From a virus: DNA of 30,965 bases. The stretch's first letter is position 1. Each line of letters begins with the position of its first letter. The stretch is from positions 1 to 30,965 of IMG/VR virus record IMGVR_UViG_3300034167_000745. The stretch is one strand, 5' to 3'. The position numbers were made by a program, and so were the translations under genes. Under the pieces are notes generated by a model, which worked only from the letters and a program-made list of their open reading frames with translations, was not told the origin of the DNA and searched no databases. Positions 9,494 to 21,589 of the stretch are shown here, one piece after another.

Positions 9494-10921
9494 ATGAATA
9501 TGAAAGCAATCTTATCACTTCTCACAAGCATGATCATACTCAGTGGCGCAAATGGCATTCGTAAGACAGAACCACAGCCGACTGCGATAGACACCTTCTT
9601 CGTACAGTGGAAGAATGACACAGACAAGGATACAATCCTTTCAGTCATATCGGGAATTGAAAGCACAGAGCACTACTCTCATATTCCAAACCTCACGCTT
9701 ATCAATATGAACAGTGTTGCCTCGATGAATCATGCAATGTCGGTTCTTGCTGCAAATCCGAATATCGAATTTATAGAAGGAGATCAAGTGTTCACTGCGA
9801 CTCGCCATGAGGTGATTCCAAATGATGTAGGGTTTTCTCAGTGTTGGGGGCATCGCAATACAGGAACATCGGGAGGACTTGTCAACTTTGACATGAATAC
9901 CTCGAACGCATGGTCGATCACACAGGGATCATCGGCTATTAAGATACTCATTTTCGAAACAGGCATACAGCAAAACCATCCCGACATCAATCAATTGACA
10001 GGGCGTGACTTCACCACAAGTGTAGTCAATGGTGTTGCGGGTGGAGATCCAAGCAACTCATGCGACAATCACGGAACAGCAGTTGCAGGATGTGTTACGG
10101 GCATCATCAACAATTCTATAGGAACTGTTGGTGTTGCTCCAAATTGCAAAGTTATATCTGCAAAGGTGGGTGTATCAATCACTCCATGTAATGGATCATG
10201 GCAGGGACAGACATCATGGACGGTAAATGCCATCAATTGGGGCATTGCAAACGGTGTTCGTGTTACCAACAACAGCAATGACTATGGAACAGTATCGACC
10301 GCAATGGCAACTGCATACACAGCAGCACGAAATGCAGGGGTAGTAAACTTTGCGTCTTCGGGCAATTCAGGAAATACAACTATAGGTTTTCCTGCAAGCA
10401 CATCGAGTGTTAATGCAGTTGGTGCAAGCAGCCGAAATGGACAGAAAGCATCGTTCTCATCATATGGCTCAAAGATTGCCTTTGTCGCAGCAGGACAATC
10501 GATCTACACCACCGATAGGACAGGAACAAATGGATATGGATCGGGAGACTACACCACAATTGACGGCACATCATTCTCTTCGCCGTATGCTGCGGGTGTT
10601 GCTGCACTAATCCTCTCTGCAAATCCATCCCTTTCTGCTGCACAGGTGGAGACAATCATGAAGACTACATGCAAAGACATGGGAACCGTTGGCTTTGATA
10701 CCCTCACGGGATGGGGAATGCTGAACGCAGAAGCCGCCGTAATTGTCGCTTCTCCCCTTCCATGCGTATCCGATCTTAATGGTGATAGGGTTGTGGATGG
10801 AAGTGATTTGGGCAAACTCTTATCTTCATGGGGAACAGCATCATCAGACATCACGGGAGATATGACTGTAGATGGGCAGGACTTGGGGGTACTGCTTGCT
10901 GCATGGGGATCATGCCCATAA
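9494..10921 (+). CDS. Secreted subtilisin-like (S8) protease with C-terminal dockerin repeats
   Basis: This 475-residue protein has four parts: a signal peptide (1-21), a probable I9-type propeptide (about 30-102), an S8 domain (about 140-415) and a dockerin-like pair (425-473). Conserved S8 positions seen are His193 (NHGTAVAG), the oxyanion Asn291 (SSGNSGN) and nucleophile Ser360 (GTSFSSPYAAG). The usual catalytic Asp in the DTG motif is Glu155 (IFETGIQQNHPDI, codon GAA). The tail repeats DLNGDRVVDGSDLGKLLSSWG-type units, written with Ca-binding Asp positions; the second unit begins DITGDMTVDG. Such tails are typical of planctomycete exported proteins. It could degrade host envelope proteins at lysis or entry. 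Reduced activity is possible because of Glu155. Confidence 0.9.
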   Translation: MNMKAILSLLTSMIILSGANGIRKTEPQPTAIDTFFVQWKNDTDKDTILSVISGIESTEHYSHIPNLTLINMNSVASMNHAMSVLAANPNIEFIEGDQVFTATRHEVIPNDVGFSQCWGHRNTGTSGGLVNFDMNTSNAWSITQGSSAIKILIFETGIQQNHPDINQLTGRDFTTSVVNGVAGGDPSNSCDNHGTAVAGCVTGIINNSIGTVGVAPNCKVISAKVGVSITPCNGSWQGQTSWTVNAINWGIANGVRVTNNSNDYGTVSTAMATAYTAARNAGVVNFASSGNSGNTTIGFPASTSSVNAVGASSRNGQKASFSSYGSKIAFVAAGQSIYTTDRTGTNGYGSGDYTTIDGTSFSSPYAAGVAALILSANPSLSAAQVETIMKTTCKDMGTVGFDTLTGWGMLNAEAAVIVASPLPCVSDLNGDRVVDGSDLGKLLSSWGTASSDITGDMTVDGQDLGVLLAAWGSCP

Positions 10922-13660: not shown

Positions 13661-13922
13661 CGAATACTTCCTTCTGATAAATGGGATCGAATGCCTCAAC
13701 GGGATCATGAATTGCAGAATCGGAATCTACTCCAAGCCATTCTGTATGAAGGCATCGAAGTAGGATGTCTGCATCATAGTCTGTTGGGAAATGCCTAAGC
13801 AATTGACATGCAGTAGTTCTAATTGTGCGAGGAACCTTAGGAGTCTTCTTTGGATCCATCAGGGAGTAGAGAAATTCCTTGGTCTGAATTATTGCACGAT
13901 GTTGTTCATCGGGTAATGTCAT
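13632..13922 (-). CDS. BPSL0761-like small protein
   Basis: This 96-residue protein starts at 13922, where ATG overlaps the gmd stop (ATGA). The N-terminal half, [30 protein letters not shown] and a [12 protein letters not shown] segment, matches the BPSL0761 family of small proteins found across proteobacteria and their phages (consensus PDERTRAVL.TREFLLDLLDPKKTPRVP...LRHYP). The function of that family is unknown. The C-terminal extension ([15 protein letters not shown]) is extra. Family assignment is from remembered consensus, so it is good but not certain. Confidence 0.75.
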
Positions 13923-14947
13923 GGGGTTATGCCCACATTCATTTGCTTTGTCAACTCTGCCATATCGCTCTTGTACATCATTCGCGCAAGCAACTTCATA
14001 TCTACCTTGGGTTGCCAACCAAGTTTCTCTTTTGCCTTGGCAGGGTCTCCTAGCAAGAAGGGCACCTCGTTCGGACGGAAGTACTTGGGATCAATGATCA
14101 CATGCTTGTGCCAATCAAGTCCTGCTTCTTCGAACACAACATCAAGGAACTCGCGGACTGTATGAGTCTGCTGTGTGGCAATCACATAGTCATCCCCCTC
14201 GGGCTGTTGAAGCATGAGCCACATGGCTTCTACATAGTCACCTGCGAATCCCCAATCACGCTTGGCATTCAGGTTACCTAGATGCAGTTCCTTCTGAAGA
14301 CCCATCTTGATTCGTACTGCTGCCATGGTAATCTTTCGAGTCACGAATGTCTCGCCACGGCGTGGACTCTCATGATTGAATAGAATACCTGACGATGCAT
14401 GAATACCATATGCATTTCGATATACACGAGTCATATGATGGGCATGAAGTTTTGCTACTGCATATGGAGACACGGGCATCATTCGACTGTGTTCGTCATA
14501 TCCAAACGAAGGATGGTAATCCTTGCTGTCGCCGTACATTTCCGATGATGATGCTTGGTAGTATCGAGTCTGTGGACTAACACTGCGGATTCCCTCAAGA
14601 ATCTTAAGAGTGCCACCTGCAATACCATCCGATGTGTACTCAGGAATTTCAAAGGACACTGCAACATGCGATTGAGCCGCCAAGTTATAAAACTCGTCAG
14701 GCTTGTATTGTGCAAGGATATGCAGCACCGATGCGCCATCAGTCAAATCATAGTGATGTAACTTGAACAGTGGGTTTTCATATAGATGGTCGATGCGACC
14801 TGTGCTGATGGTTGAAGTTCTGCGCTTGAGACCAACGACTTGGTATCCCTTAGCGAGAAGCATATCTGCAAGATATGATCCATCCTGTCCATTCACCCCT
14901 GTGATGACAGCCATTTTACCATTCCACTCAACATTTAAATTCTTCAA
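13919..14947 (-). CDS. gmd: GDP-mannose 4,6-dehydratase with N-terminal extension
   Basis: This 342-residue short-chain dehydrogenase converts GDP-mannose to GDP-4-keto-6-deoxymannose, the precursor of fucose, rhamnose and perosamine sugars. Visible motifs are the Rossmann [10 protein letters not shown] (17-26), the catalytic SSSEMYG (133-139) and YAVAK (162-166). The start is a TTG at 14947 with GAGGA 6 nt upstream. The ATG at 14914 would give a normal Gmd start but has no ribosome site. The TTG start adds 11 residues, [11 protein letters not shown], which resemble the first ten residues of the 29102 and 30243 proteins. No partner sugar genes lie nearby, so it must work with host enzymes. 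A CTAAATAT box stands upstream. Confidence 0.92.
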
Positions 14948-17649: not shown

Positions 17650-18048
17650 TTAAACTTTGTATGTTGTTCGGAGCAACAATATCGATGCAAATACATCAGT
17701 AAGCGTTAGATTATTGCCCGTCCAATTTAGTACGATTTTTGCAGATCCTGCGCCCTGATACAGATGGCTTCCTGCCCATCGATAGAGGGGCATATCGGTT
17801 CCTGCACCCTTAAAGACGATTCCCTTCTCATAATGAAAGACACAGTTCGATGTTGATGCACCACTGAATGCCTTTGTTCCGACAATTGTCAACAGTGCTT
17901 TACTGTTTGATGCACCCGCCCATACCTTCGATCCTTTGACATTACATACAGGGAGTCCCATGCTCGTTTGGTCATAGAATATCGTTCCATACTTTTTGAA
18001 GATGGGGGTCGATGTTCCTGCGCCTTTATATAATTGTGTTAGTCCCAT
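17650..18048 (-). CDS. Six-fold 18-residue repeat protein
   Basis: This 132-residue protein is made of a 5-residue start, six contiguous 18-residue repeats (residues 6-113) and a 19-residue hydrophobic/basic tail. Repeat openings are LYKGAGTS, FYDQTSMG, VWAGASNS, AFSGASTS, VFKGAGTD and LYQGAGSA; each repeat ends near a Gly-x-x. The consensus is hydrophobic-aromatic-x-Gly-Ala-Gly/Ser-Thr/Ser, then about 9 residues, then Gly. An 18-residue period with alternating aromatics suits a beta-solenoid or a toroid of beta hairpins, as in surface or tail proteins. It follows the dockerin trypsin-like gene in the same putative late operon. No known family recognised. Confidence 0.75.
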   Translation of the reverse strand: MGLTQLYKGAGTSTPIFKKYGTIFYDQTSMGLPVCNVKGSKVWAGASNSKALLTIVGTKAFSGASTSNCVFHYEKGIVFKGAGTDMPLYRWAGSHLYQGAGSAKIVLNWTGNNLTLTDVFASILLLRTTYKV

Positions 18049-18071: not shown

Positions 18072-18260
18072 CTACTCGTCACTACCTTTACCCCATCCCG
18101 TTCCATGCTTGTATGCATTGATGATATCGTCTGTGTATTTACCTGATGCTTTGAGTACTCGAATTTCTTCAGCAGCATCACGACAGATATCATAAATCTC
18201 TTGGTTTACTGTGCGCCACTTGTCAGCCATATTTCGCAGCCTTGTTTCTATGTCGTTCAT
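18072..18260 (-). CDS. Small helical protein
   Basis: This 62-residue protein is helical and charged (MNDIETRLRNMADKWR, DAAEEIRVLKASGKY), with a Gly-rich end (HGTGWGKGSDE). Its ATG overlaps the stop of the dockerin trypsin-like gene by four bases (ATGA), so the two are translationally coupled. The LR.MA..WR...QEIYDICRDAA.EI pattern is like small phage proteins with a single helical hairpin. Function unknown. Confidence 0.65.
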   Translation of the reverse strand: MNDIETRLRNMADKWRTVNQEIYDICRDAAEEIRVLKASGKYTDDIINAYKHGTGWGKGSDE

Positions 18261-19330
18261 AGTCTTTTAGGTGTTCCTCTGATTGATTTTGTTGTATTAA
18301 CAGTTGGTGGTGGAGCAACAGGCACAGGAACATTTCGAGCCATTGTGTATGCTCCCCATGCTGCTTGTAGTTGAGCAACATCTGCTCCATCTACTTTGCC
18401 GTCTCCATTAATATCCATGAAGATGTTTCCATTACCCCATGCGCCGAGAAGCATTGCCAAGTCTGCACCATCGACTTTACCGTCATCGTTCAAGTCTTCA
18501 ATCTTAGATGACAGCATAACATGAGTTACGGTATAACCATGTGATTGAATTTGAGCATTGATCGCACGAATCTCAGGAGCATTCACCTGCATCCCGCCGT
18601 TCATCAATCCAACAAATATAGTATGCCCACCACCATCAATGACGAATGCAGGACTGCCACTATCGCCACCCCAAATGACTGGCCATCCTCCTGCCTGTGC
18701 GCCTTCATTGATACCATCCTTGATCGGCATAACACCAAACCCATTACACACATCAGCGTTGTTCACGAAAGACTTATCCATGTCCATCTTGTATGCCTTA
18801 CCTTCACACTCATGTACCCACACAGGGTGTTTGAGTGGAATGTATCGCGCATCAGCGATATGATCATAAATGCAGACATCATCCTTAGGGAACTCTGACT
18901 CAAACTCTAATAGAGTGTGATCAGGCCCAATCGAGAAAGTTACCTTTACAACTTTGCGAGAGTGTCTTGTCCCAGACTTACCTAAGAATGTGTAGGCTTC
19001 ATACTCTCCGACAGGGCGACCTGGCCCACGGTAATGCTCACAGATAAGAGCATGCTTGGGTGATATGAGAACAGCAGCAGGATTGGTTGTGTTCCAAAAA
19101 TTAATACTCTCCGCAATATACGGAGTGGTGAGATTGCCTCTTAGTAATTTAGAGTACTCTCGCGCAAATGCACGGGGGCGTAAACTTACACCCGACCAAT
19201 CAACTGCTGCTCCTTGACAAGAAGGGTTGAATCCCTTCTGCTCACCACCAACAAGTGGTACGAGTGTTGCGGGGGCGTGATAGGTATGAATGTCATGAAC
19301 GGTGGGATTGTAGTTTTTGAGTATTGCCAT
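18257..19330 (-). CDS. Trypsin-like serine protease-fold protein with dockerin repeats
   Basis: This 357-residue protein has an S1/chymotrypsin-like domain (about 80-275): a probable His in ISPKHALICEHY (His93 or His99), Asp137 in GPDHTLLEF, and the nucleophile Ser224 in GGDSGSPAF. Two dockerin-type units follow: DLNDDGKVDGADLAMLLGAWG (279-299, given in consensus form) and DINGDGKVDG (306-315) onward. A Pro-rich basic tail ends the protein. There is no signal peptide, so unlike planctomycete exported proteins of this type it is probably a virion component or cytoplasmic. A CATAAATA late-like box and AAGGG lie before the start. Protease activity is likely but unproven. A tail-adhesin role is inference. 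Confidence 0.83.
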   Translation of the reverse strand: MAILKNYNPTVHDIHTYHAPATLVPLVGGEQKGFNPSCQGAAVDWSGVSLRPRAFAREYSKLLRGNLTTPYIAESINFWNTTNPAAVLISPKHALICEHYRGPGRPVGEYEAYTFLGKSGTRHSRKVVKVTFSIGPDHTLLEFESEFPKDDVCIYDHIADARYIPLKHPVWVHECEGKAYKMDMDKSFVNNADVCNGFGVMPIKDGINEGAQAGGWPVIWGGDSGSPAFVIDGGGHTIFVGLMNGGMQVNAPEIRAINAQIQSHGYTVTHVMLSSKIEDLNDDGKVDGADLAMLLGAWGNGNIFMDINGDGKVDGADVAQLQAAWGAYTMARNVPVPVAPPPTVNTTKSIRGTPKRL

Positions 19331-19892: not shown

Positions 19893-21035
19893 TTAGTCTC
19901 CGATACGAAGCATATCACGACCAAGGATACCATCAACAGTTAGAACACCCGCGCTGCACGAACCGTTACCAACGGTGAGCATATCGTAAGCAGCCGTAGA
20001 GTAGTACGAGTTTACTCCACCCGAAGCAACAAACCACAAACTGCCACTAGCGACCGAAGATCCATTGGCGTTCTCTGTCTGAGCAAGTGCCAAGTCATTG
20101 TCCTGCTGAATACCCGCAATTGACACCACCTGAGTGTGTCCATCAAAGCAGAGAGTTGCAGGTGCGCTGTTGTAGCCTTGGTTGTAGAACCACGGAGTTG
20201 GTGTTGAGAACGCAGGATTCACTTCGCCGCCTTCCATGTTCTGAAGCCATTGATGCTCCCACATACGCCACTTCAGCGAAGGGTACTGTGCAAGACCTGC
20301 GCCTGGACTCTTGAAAGCACCAGGCATGGTTGCCTTGGTTGGCTTTCCACCAAACACCGCAGAACTACCACTACCTGTCTTACGCGACCATGCCATCACA
20401 TCTGGCGACCACATGGCAGACGGACTCCAACAGTAAGTGGGGGTTTCAAAGTCACCATTCGTAAAGTTGAACTCCACGGGAGTGGAAAAATACTTGTCAA
20501 TCTTGGCAAGGGTAATCTTGTCCTTTGGTGCCCAAAAAACCTTGTCATAGAATTTGCCACCAACATAACTGTTGAATGCCTTACAATTGGTGAGCCGCCA
20601 TGAGCCTTCCCACCGTGCAGATGCTCCCCAAAAATCACAGGCTTGATATGTCACAAAGTTATTGCAACCTCCTAACCATGCAGCACATCGTGCAGGAGAA
20701 CCACTAACCCAATATCCCCACAGACCACCAGTAGAATCCCAACCAAGAAGCATTTGCGGAATACATTGCGTAGCAGTAATTGCAGTACACGCAGGAGTAA
20801 TGGCATCACCGTACATTCCAATCTCATCAGGAACAGCAGTAAACTGCCTGTCGTTGTAGTCAGCCCCGTATGCATTATTCGCAGCACTCAGGTTGCGAAG
20901 ATTGCCTAGACTCTGTGTGATGAGTGCAGCGTCTCGTGCCTTACCAATCGCAGGTAACAGGATTGCAATAAGCAAAGCGATGATCGAAACGACCACCAAC
21001 AGTTCAACAATAGTAAAGCCCTTTTTATTTTTCAT
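19893..21035 (-). CDS. Planctomycete-type prepilin-like (pseudopilin) protein
   Basis: This 380-residue protein opens with a textbook type IV prepilin signal: MKNKKG / FTIVELLVVVSI, with cleavage after Gly6, methylated Phe7 and Glu at mature position 5 (residue 11). A 20-residue hydrophobic helix follows. The large globular part is Trp- and Cys-rich (about ten Cys) and contains an LCFDGHTQVVSIAG segment (about 307-320) like the C-terminal FxDGHV of the DUF1559 protein family that is massively expanded in planctomycetes. AAGGAA precedes the ATG, which overlaps the phosphoesterase stop (ATGA). It lies in an early-type operon, not the late module. It would be processed by the host prepilin peptidase. 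Its role is unknown: pilus interference, surface masking or receptor change are possible. Confidence 0.88.
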   Translation of the reverse strand: MKNKKGFTIVELLVVVSIIALLIAILLPAIGKARDAALITQSLGNLRNLSAANNAYGADYNDRQFTAVPDEIGMYGDAITPACTAITATQCIPQMLLGWDSTGGLWGYWVSGSPARCAAWLGGCNNFVTYQACDFWGASARWEGSWRLTNCKAFNSYVGGKFYDKVFWAPKDKITLAKIDKYFSTPVEFNFTNGDFETPTYCWSPSAMWSPDVMAWSRKTGSGSSAVFGGKPTKATMPGAFKSPGAGLAQYPSLKWRMWEHQWLQNMEGGEVNPAFSTPTPWFYNQGYNSAPATLCFDGHTQVVSIAGIQQDNDLALAQTENANGSSVASGSLWFVASGGVNSYYSTAAYDMLTVGNGSCSAGVLTVDGILGRDMLRIGD

Positions 21036-21589
21036 ATGGTTTCCTTGTGGTGGAGTGCGGCAACACGGTTTCTAATCTCATCAATACTAATAGGAGTGTA
21101 TCCGATTCTCTCCACACAGCAAGAGAAATATCGTAGATCGGTCACTCCTTCTGCAAGCATTACTTCTTCGGCGTGAAGATGTGCGTGAATATTTAGCCAA
21201 GACGCATTCCGTTTTGCTCTCCAAAGGGACACGGGATGAATTGGAATATGCGAAAGAATTTCATTGTCTAACTTATGATATGCACGAACATCTTTAAAAT
21301 ATTTTGCGTACTGCGAGAGTTGCAGAGTGTCGTGGTTGCCTTTGATTAGAATCTTTGTGCCGTTCAAGTACCCAAGGATTTTTAAATCTTTTGGTGTGAA
21401 TGCCACATCACCCATGACATATACCTTGTCACCCTTGGAAACGGTGTTGTTCCAATTCGCTGCCATTATGGCATCACCTTCTGCTGCCGAAGCCCACGGA
21501 CGAACCCGTGTGCCGTCCGCACGAAGGAATCGGTACATGGCTTCATGTCCGAAGTGAGTACAACCAATGAAGTATGTGCATGCACTCAT
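21032..21589 (-). CDS. Calcineurin-like metallophosphoesterase
   Basis: This 185-residue phosphoesterase has the family motifs in order: CTHFGH (10-15), GDVAF (60-64), GNHD (84-87), SHIPIH (113-118) and NIHAHLH (133-139). Size and layout match the small phage metallophosphoesterases (usual first motif D-T-H-F-G-H). Here the first metal ligand Asp is replaced by Cys10 (codon TGT), which may alter metal preference. The substrate is unknown; a nucleotide or phosphate-ended nucleic acid is plausible. Both ends overlap neighbours by four bases (ATGA), so it is tightly coupled with the 47-residue membrane protein upstream and the pseudopilin downstream. Confidence 0.87.
   Translation of the reverse strand: MSACTYFIGCTHFGHEAMYRFLRADGTRVRPWASAAEGDAIMAANWNNTVSKGDKVYVMGDVAFTPKDLKILGYLNGTKILIKGNHDTLQLSQYAKYFKDVRAYHKLDNEILSHIPIHPVSLWRAKRNASWLNIHAHLHAEEVMLAEGVTDLRYFSCCVERIGYTPISIDEIRNRVAALHHKETI

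Follow-up and report, generated by a model that had tools for sequence, protein, structure and literature searches.

A T4-like phage operon carries a pseudopilin gene that appears to be a captured and selectively maintained Phycisphaerales gene

The window analyzed here comprises the 30,965 bases of an IMG/VR virus record and is a fragment of a T4-like myovirus. Matches to PHROGs 45 (tail tube), 213 (portal), 207 (head maturation protease), and 138 (major capsid protein) identify the phage as T4-like, and its major capsid protein shares ~64% identity with the capsid proteins of Melnitz-type methylophages and pelagimyophages. The structural genes lie on the plus strand. The gene under study, an open reading frame (ORF) for a 380-amino-acid pseudopilin, lies on the minus strand and away from them, as anticipated in the original prediction, which placed it outside the virion genes (Table 1). 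This location and orientation, together with a prepilin leader and membrane helix that would route the protein to the inner membrane, argue against its being a virion component, e.g., a fiber or decoration protein imitating the pilus of the host; nothing specific speaks for such a role, which ranks among the worst-fitting explanations and which we consider very improbable. The proposed coupling of the gene with a phosphoesterase and a tiny membrane protein was confirmed at both junctions: the membrane protein gene overlaps the phosphoesterase start, and the phosphoesterase gene ends in ...AAGGAAACCATATGA (ATGA), so that the pseudopilin ATG overlaps the phosphoesterase stop.

Signals bearing on the proposed early-type character of the operon were weaker and do not suffice for a claim about timing. 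The late-promoter-like motif MTAAATA occurs at 11 sites versus 6.9 ± 2.6 expected, a count reached by 10 of 100 shuffles, and shuffled sequences contain more sigma-70-like sites than the window does. CTAAATA/TATAAATA is found at 24, 5358, 6501, 7972, and 29090 on the plus strand, shortly upstream of several structural or plus-strand genes; these sites are possible T4-like late promoters, with a total in the window that is not above chance. Elsewhere in the neighborhood, a relative of the 357-residue dockerin protein also adjoins the pilin in phage L104. Dockerin proteins related to those of the window occur in many relative phages (L187 to L189, L196, L197, L104, and L195), and host genomes contain dozens of dockerin-repeat matches.

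Table 1. Features of the window discussed in the text
Feature	Position	Strand	Basis or remark
Phage pseudopilin gene, host derived, 380 aa, ATG start	19893..21035	-	ORF call, profile matches, orthologs, tree
Class III prepilin leader MKNKKG; predicted cleavage before F7, mature FTIVE	21018..21035	-	Inferred from sequence and profiles
N-terminal hydrophobic assembly helix, residues 7-52	20880..21017	-	Protein identical to host L006 despite synonymous changes
FDGH motif, residues 297-300	20136..20147	-	Short likeness to ADGH of host DUF1559-like proteins
AAGGAAA at end of phosphoesterase gene; probable ribosome site for whichever cargo comes next	21040..21046	-	
Upstream gene for a calcineurin-like phosphoesterase of 185 aa, overlapping the pseudopilin gene by 4 bases	21032..21589	-	PHROG 547, 2.6e-42
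Single-pass membrane protein, 47 aa	21586..21729	-	Overlaps phosphoesterase start
Small conserved phage protein, 79 aa	19621..19860	-	Directly behind phosphoesterase in pilin-less relatives
Protein of 357 aa without signal sequence; protease-like middle (GGDSGSP) and, at the C terminus, a dockerin type I domain with planctomycete-type repeats	18257..19330	-	
6-fold beta flower protein (Bflower_3)	17650-18048	-	41 vs cut-off 34 bits; 100% identical in L192
GDP-mannose 4,6-dehydratase, complete gene	13919-14947	-	437.8 vs curated cut-off 415 bits; 83% identical in L104
Subtilisin-like protease, apparent signal sequence, planctomycete-type C-terminal dockerin repeats	9494-10921	+	

The N terminus of the protein reads MKNKKG/FTIVELLVVVSIIALLIAILLP and has the residues that characterize the type IV pilin-like/pseudopilin superfamily (G or A at −1, F or M at +1, and Glu at +5; leader MKNKKG/FTIVE), along with the long N-terminal hydrophobic helix of that superfamily, which is evident both in the sequence and as a modeled helix (residues 9 to 56). 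The first 27 residues matched the Pfam N_methyl profile (PF07963) at 31.1 bits (curated cut-off, 21.2), and NCBIfam TIGR02532 was matched at 24.7 (cut-off, 16.3). Because full-length orthologs with 91 to 94% identity exist, the ORF is far beyond chance. The profile matches and the Phycisphaerales orthologs described below thus bear out the suggestion that the phage encodes a planctomycete-type pseudopilin with a prepilin signal. An AlphaFold2 model, for which 16 relatives served as input, had a mean pLDDT of 32.9; helix 9 to 56 alone was moderately confident, and the model outside this first helix was discarded as unusable.

Likeness to known families is concentrated at the N terminus. Assignment to the GspG major pseudopilins (TIGR01710) was rejected at 28.5 bits, far under the cut-off of 88.85. 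The phage protein shares its N-terminal signal and helix with GspG and with type IV pilins such as PilA and geopilin (TIGR01710 E value of 1.3e-6; PDB matches to geopilin and PilA), whereas its globular part has no sequence match to them. The prepilin signal and helix are likewise shared with phrog_3433, annotated in PHROGs as "pilin" (moron/host takeover), and with phrog_27437, but those matches span the first 40 to 88 residues, and both families, at 127 to 140 positions, lack the ~300-residue C-terminal region. The FDGH segment had been likened to host DUF1559 proteins, and membership in that family was not sustained: none of 16 family members matched DUF1559 (PF07596, SBP_bac_10) or H-X9-DG at an E value of ≤10, and hhalign profile alignments to host DUF1559-like proteins were confined to the first ~104 columns, at the N terminus. 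What the phage protein has in common with planctomycete DUF1559/SBP_bac_10 proteins is the N-terminal prepilin helix and, toward the C-terminal part, a short DGH motif. Among GenBank phages no full-length relative was found, and a search there with the first 64 residues gave no match, for which the low-complexity filter is perhaps responsible. PADLOC gave no match for the pilin, and a literature search of open-licence papers did not find a phage-encoded pseudopilin of this kind.

Host relatives of the window protein were sought by scanning one genome per species. Full-length relatives share 91 to 94% amino acid identity with it in freshwater Phycisphaerales metagenome-assembled genomes, 83 to 85% in sister species, and 68 to 73% further out, and L016 carries two tandem relatives with ~49% identity. 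A Chitinophaga label on one contig is probably wrong, since both the pilin and the genes around it correspond to the Phycisphaerales locus. At the chromosomal locus of the 91 to 94% relatives, the gene order (with names assigned by reading of the sequences) is a Der-like GTPase, upp, pduO (cobalamin adenosyltransferase), the pilin, and a secreted peptidase-like protein. Each searched host genome contains 6 to 15 prepilin-type genes and a single close ortholog, at the pduO locus; within the wider host family, the pseudopilin family is present in 74 of 101 genomes, often as tandem arrays. Host genomes also hold matches to T2SSE-type ATPases, secretins, and prepilin peptidases, the peptidase scoring above its curated cut-off in four of eight genomes. 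The pduO-adjacent pseudopilins (L006, L003, L007, and L004) are colinear with the phage protein over their full length, are 91 to 93% identical to it, and share its leader type, helix, and invariant cysteines. They differ in setting, as they occupy a conserved chromosomal locus and have a GC3 of ~0.68, whereas the phage copy, with a GC3 of 0.45 like that of other phage genes, sits in a phage operon. In the tree, the phage copy is nested within the Phycisphaerales host clade, as is characteristic of a host-derived auxiliary (moron) gene. On sequence evidence, the window gene goes back to the pseudopilin next to pduO in a freshwater Phycisphaerales host; it entered a variable phage slot directly behind the phosphoesterase gene and has acquired phage codon usage.

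The variability of that slot was apparent in related phages, which we located through the phosphoesterase gene that adjoins it. They have the same operon without the pilin, which is present at 0 of 25 phosphoesterase loci, several of them incomplete. In L187 and L189, whose phosphoesterase is 98% identical, the slot is empty and the next gene lies directly behind the phosphoesterase. Elsewhere the slot is occupied by a putative secreted protein (L188), a 62-amino-acid membrane protein (L191 to L193, L195, and L196), or small soluble proteins of a coiled-coil type (L200 to L202), the last of which rule out the idea that all slot cargo is envelope protein. An AAGGAA ahead of the cargo start is conserved in all relatives read, whether the cargo differs or is absent. 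Since the slot is empty or carries other cargo while the AAGGAA is conserved, the pilin is an optional insertion for which translation coupling is already in place; being embedded in a phage genome and optional among relatives is a further characteristic of moron genes. Some putative secreted proteins have PEP-CTERM-like C termini, namely, one in the pilin's slot of L188 (6630-7295) and three in L104 (3442-4122, 4122-4583, and 6673-7305), with PEP-CTERM profile matches that are weak, below cut-offs, or lacking.

Pseudopilins in other planctomycete phages, for which a check had been proposed, were indeed found. A profile scan of viral contigs recovered two further full-length genes, in L103 (123 kb), a T4-like phage with a gp32-type SSB and a baseplate hub, and in L104 (120 kb). 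These two pilins are 97% identical to one another and each ~47% identical to the window protein, and they share 80 to 82% identity with proteins of another Phycisphaerales clade (G065, G105, G163, G029, and others). The corresponding host genes again neighbor pduO and upp, in an array of three genes of which they are the one nearest to pduO. Strongly supported branches of the tree force two phage origins. These relationships indicate that the L103/L104 gene is a second, separate capture from the corresponding locus of a different Phycisphaerales clade, with capture by phages having happened at least twice. The L104 capsid protein is 84% identical to that of the window; thus, close phage kin hold pilins of different host origin. 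Between L103 (9934-11084) and L104 (1103-2253), similarity (92% nucleotide identity) does not extend beyond the pilin and the 61 bases preceding it: the gene moved between phages alone. The scans were queried with this pseudopilin family, and other pseudopilins may be captured too.

To what extent the captured gene is maintained can be read from its substitutions. Compared with L006, the window gene has 84% nucleotide and 93% amino acid identity (dN, 0.05; dS, 0.95). At sites where all four close hosts agree, changes on the phage branch comprise 95 synonymous and 14 nonsynonymous substitutions, 83 of them towards A/T and 14 towards G/C, whereas ~69 to 77% nonsynonymous changes would be expected under neutrality (p of ~1e-33 to 1e-46 across the mutation biases tried). 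Before capture, an unsampled host lineage could already have accumulated part of this synonymous divergence. The comparison of the L103 and L104 pilins, in which no host lineage takes part, yielded 10 nonsynonymous and 78 synonymous differences (dN, 0.0145; dS, 0.385). Over the assembly helix (residues 3 to 52), 17 nucleotide differences between the window and L006, and 45 between L103 and its host, change no amino acid. The cleavage site, Glu5, and every family-invariant residue are conserved in the phage protein. Collectively, these patterns indicate that the phage copies are under strong purifying selection, that is, maintained by selection in phages as moron genes are.

Purifying selection, phage-like codon use, and the unchanged helix argue against both a neutral passenger and a poison subunit. 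That few phages have the gene, and that relatives leave the slot empty or fill it otherwise, would be consistent with a chance passenger without function; however, codon adaptation, the purifying selection acting on each captured gene, the two captures themselves, and the movement of a single gene between phages make this as poor a fit as a virion part, and we give it hardly any credence. The original prediction had also raised the possibility of a phage protein that jams the pilus or the secretion system of the host. A dominant-negative subunit would be consistent with the pilin-type signal and operon position, and one that is strongly expressed could upset stoichiometry. Yet the cleavage site, Glu5, helix, and family-invariant residues are without defect, and a poison need not keep the whole host protein at a dN/dS of ~0.04 to 0.06. 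Jamming therefore fits poorly and has become an improbable explanation.

A protein that retains its leader, helix, Glu5, and invariant residues is most simply read as a functional subunit joining the host's own fiber. Our best explanation, in which we place about even confidence, is that the phage uses a captured host pseudopilin as a functional pseudopilin that co-assembles with host machinery to sustain or boost a host fiber. The protein would be made from the operon via translational coupling, placed in the inner membrane, and cut by the host prepilin peptidase; a host type IV pilus or type II secretion-like machinery would then co-assemble the phage subunit into the fiber served by the host gene. 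T4-like phages shut down host expression, and the phage copy would therefore sustain the fiber, which is how we infer a benefit to the phage: subunit supply as host gene expression falls would keep or increase fiber work, whether secretion or polymer capture, until lysis. In the planctomycetes Planctopirus limnophila and Gemmata obscuriglobus, pili-like fibers bind dextran and may join in macromolecule uptake (PMC5394234), although these fibers are not known to consist of this pseudopilin. Against fiber upkeep stands the optional nature of the gene, which most related phages lack.

A serious rival, which fits nearly as well as fiber upkeep and which we hold to be possible if rather unlikely, is receptor replacement for superinfection exclusion, in which a working fiber subunit outcompetes or covers the pilin that serves as the receptor of rival phages. 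The many pseudopilin-type genes of the hosts would make a swap of fiber composition possible, the amino acid differences from L006 all fall outside the assembly helix, and a protein that has to fit the fiber for exclusion would likewise retain the host sequence. Pilus-based exclusion has a precedent in PfsE of Pf phage, which binds PilC and blocks pili (PMC8764522), but PfsE is an inhibitor and not a pilin. Moreover, no segment of the phage protein has an excess of amino acid change, and overall constraint is strong.

Among known systems, comparison can be made with the curli pore genes csgGF of pelagimyophages and the methylophage Melnitz, which are also T4-like aquatic phages with a surface-secretion gene. 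The curli genes belong to a different system, and the phage pseudopilin has an intact host ortholog, unlike the curli genes in OM43, a host that lacks them (PMC9004378). We tentatively propose, with somewhat less confidence than in the role of the window gene itself, that lytic T4-like Phycisphaerales phages repeatedly capture one particular pseudopilin of their hosts and, during infection, operate it as a functional part of the host fiber machine. If so, a pilus or secretion fiber would be a phage-maintained host function, like the photosynthesis genes in cyanophages, and some phages would need a host surface fiber kept working, whereas known pilus-acting phage proteins, such as PfsE, are mostly inhibitors. 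The captured pseudopilin ties uncultured phages to their hosts, and it singles out one specific, otherwise unstudied Phycisphaerales pseudopilin as important to the cell or the phage.
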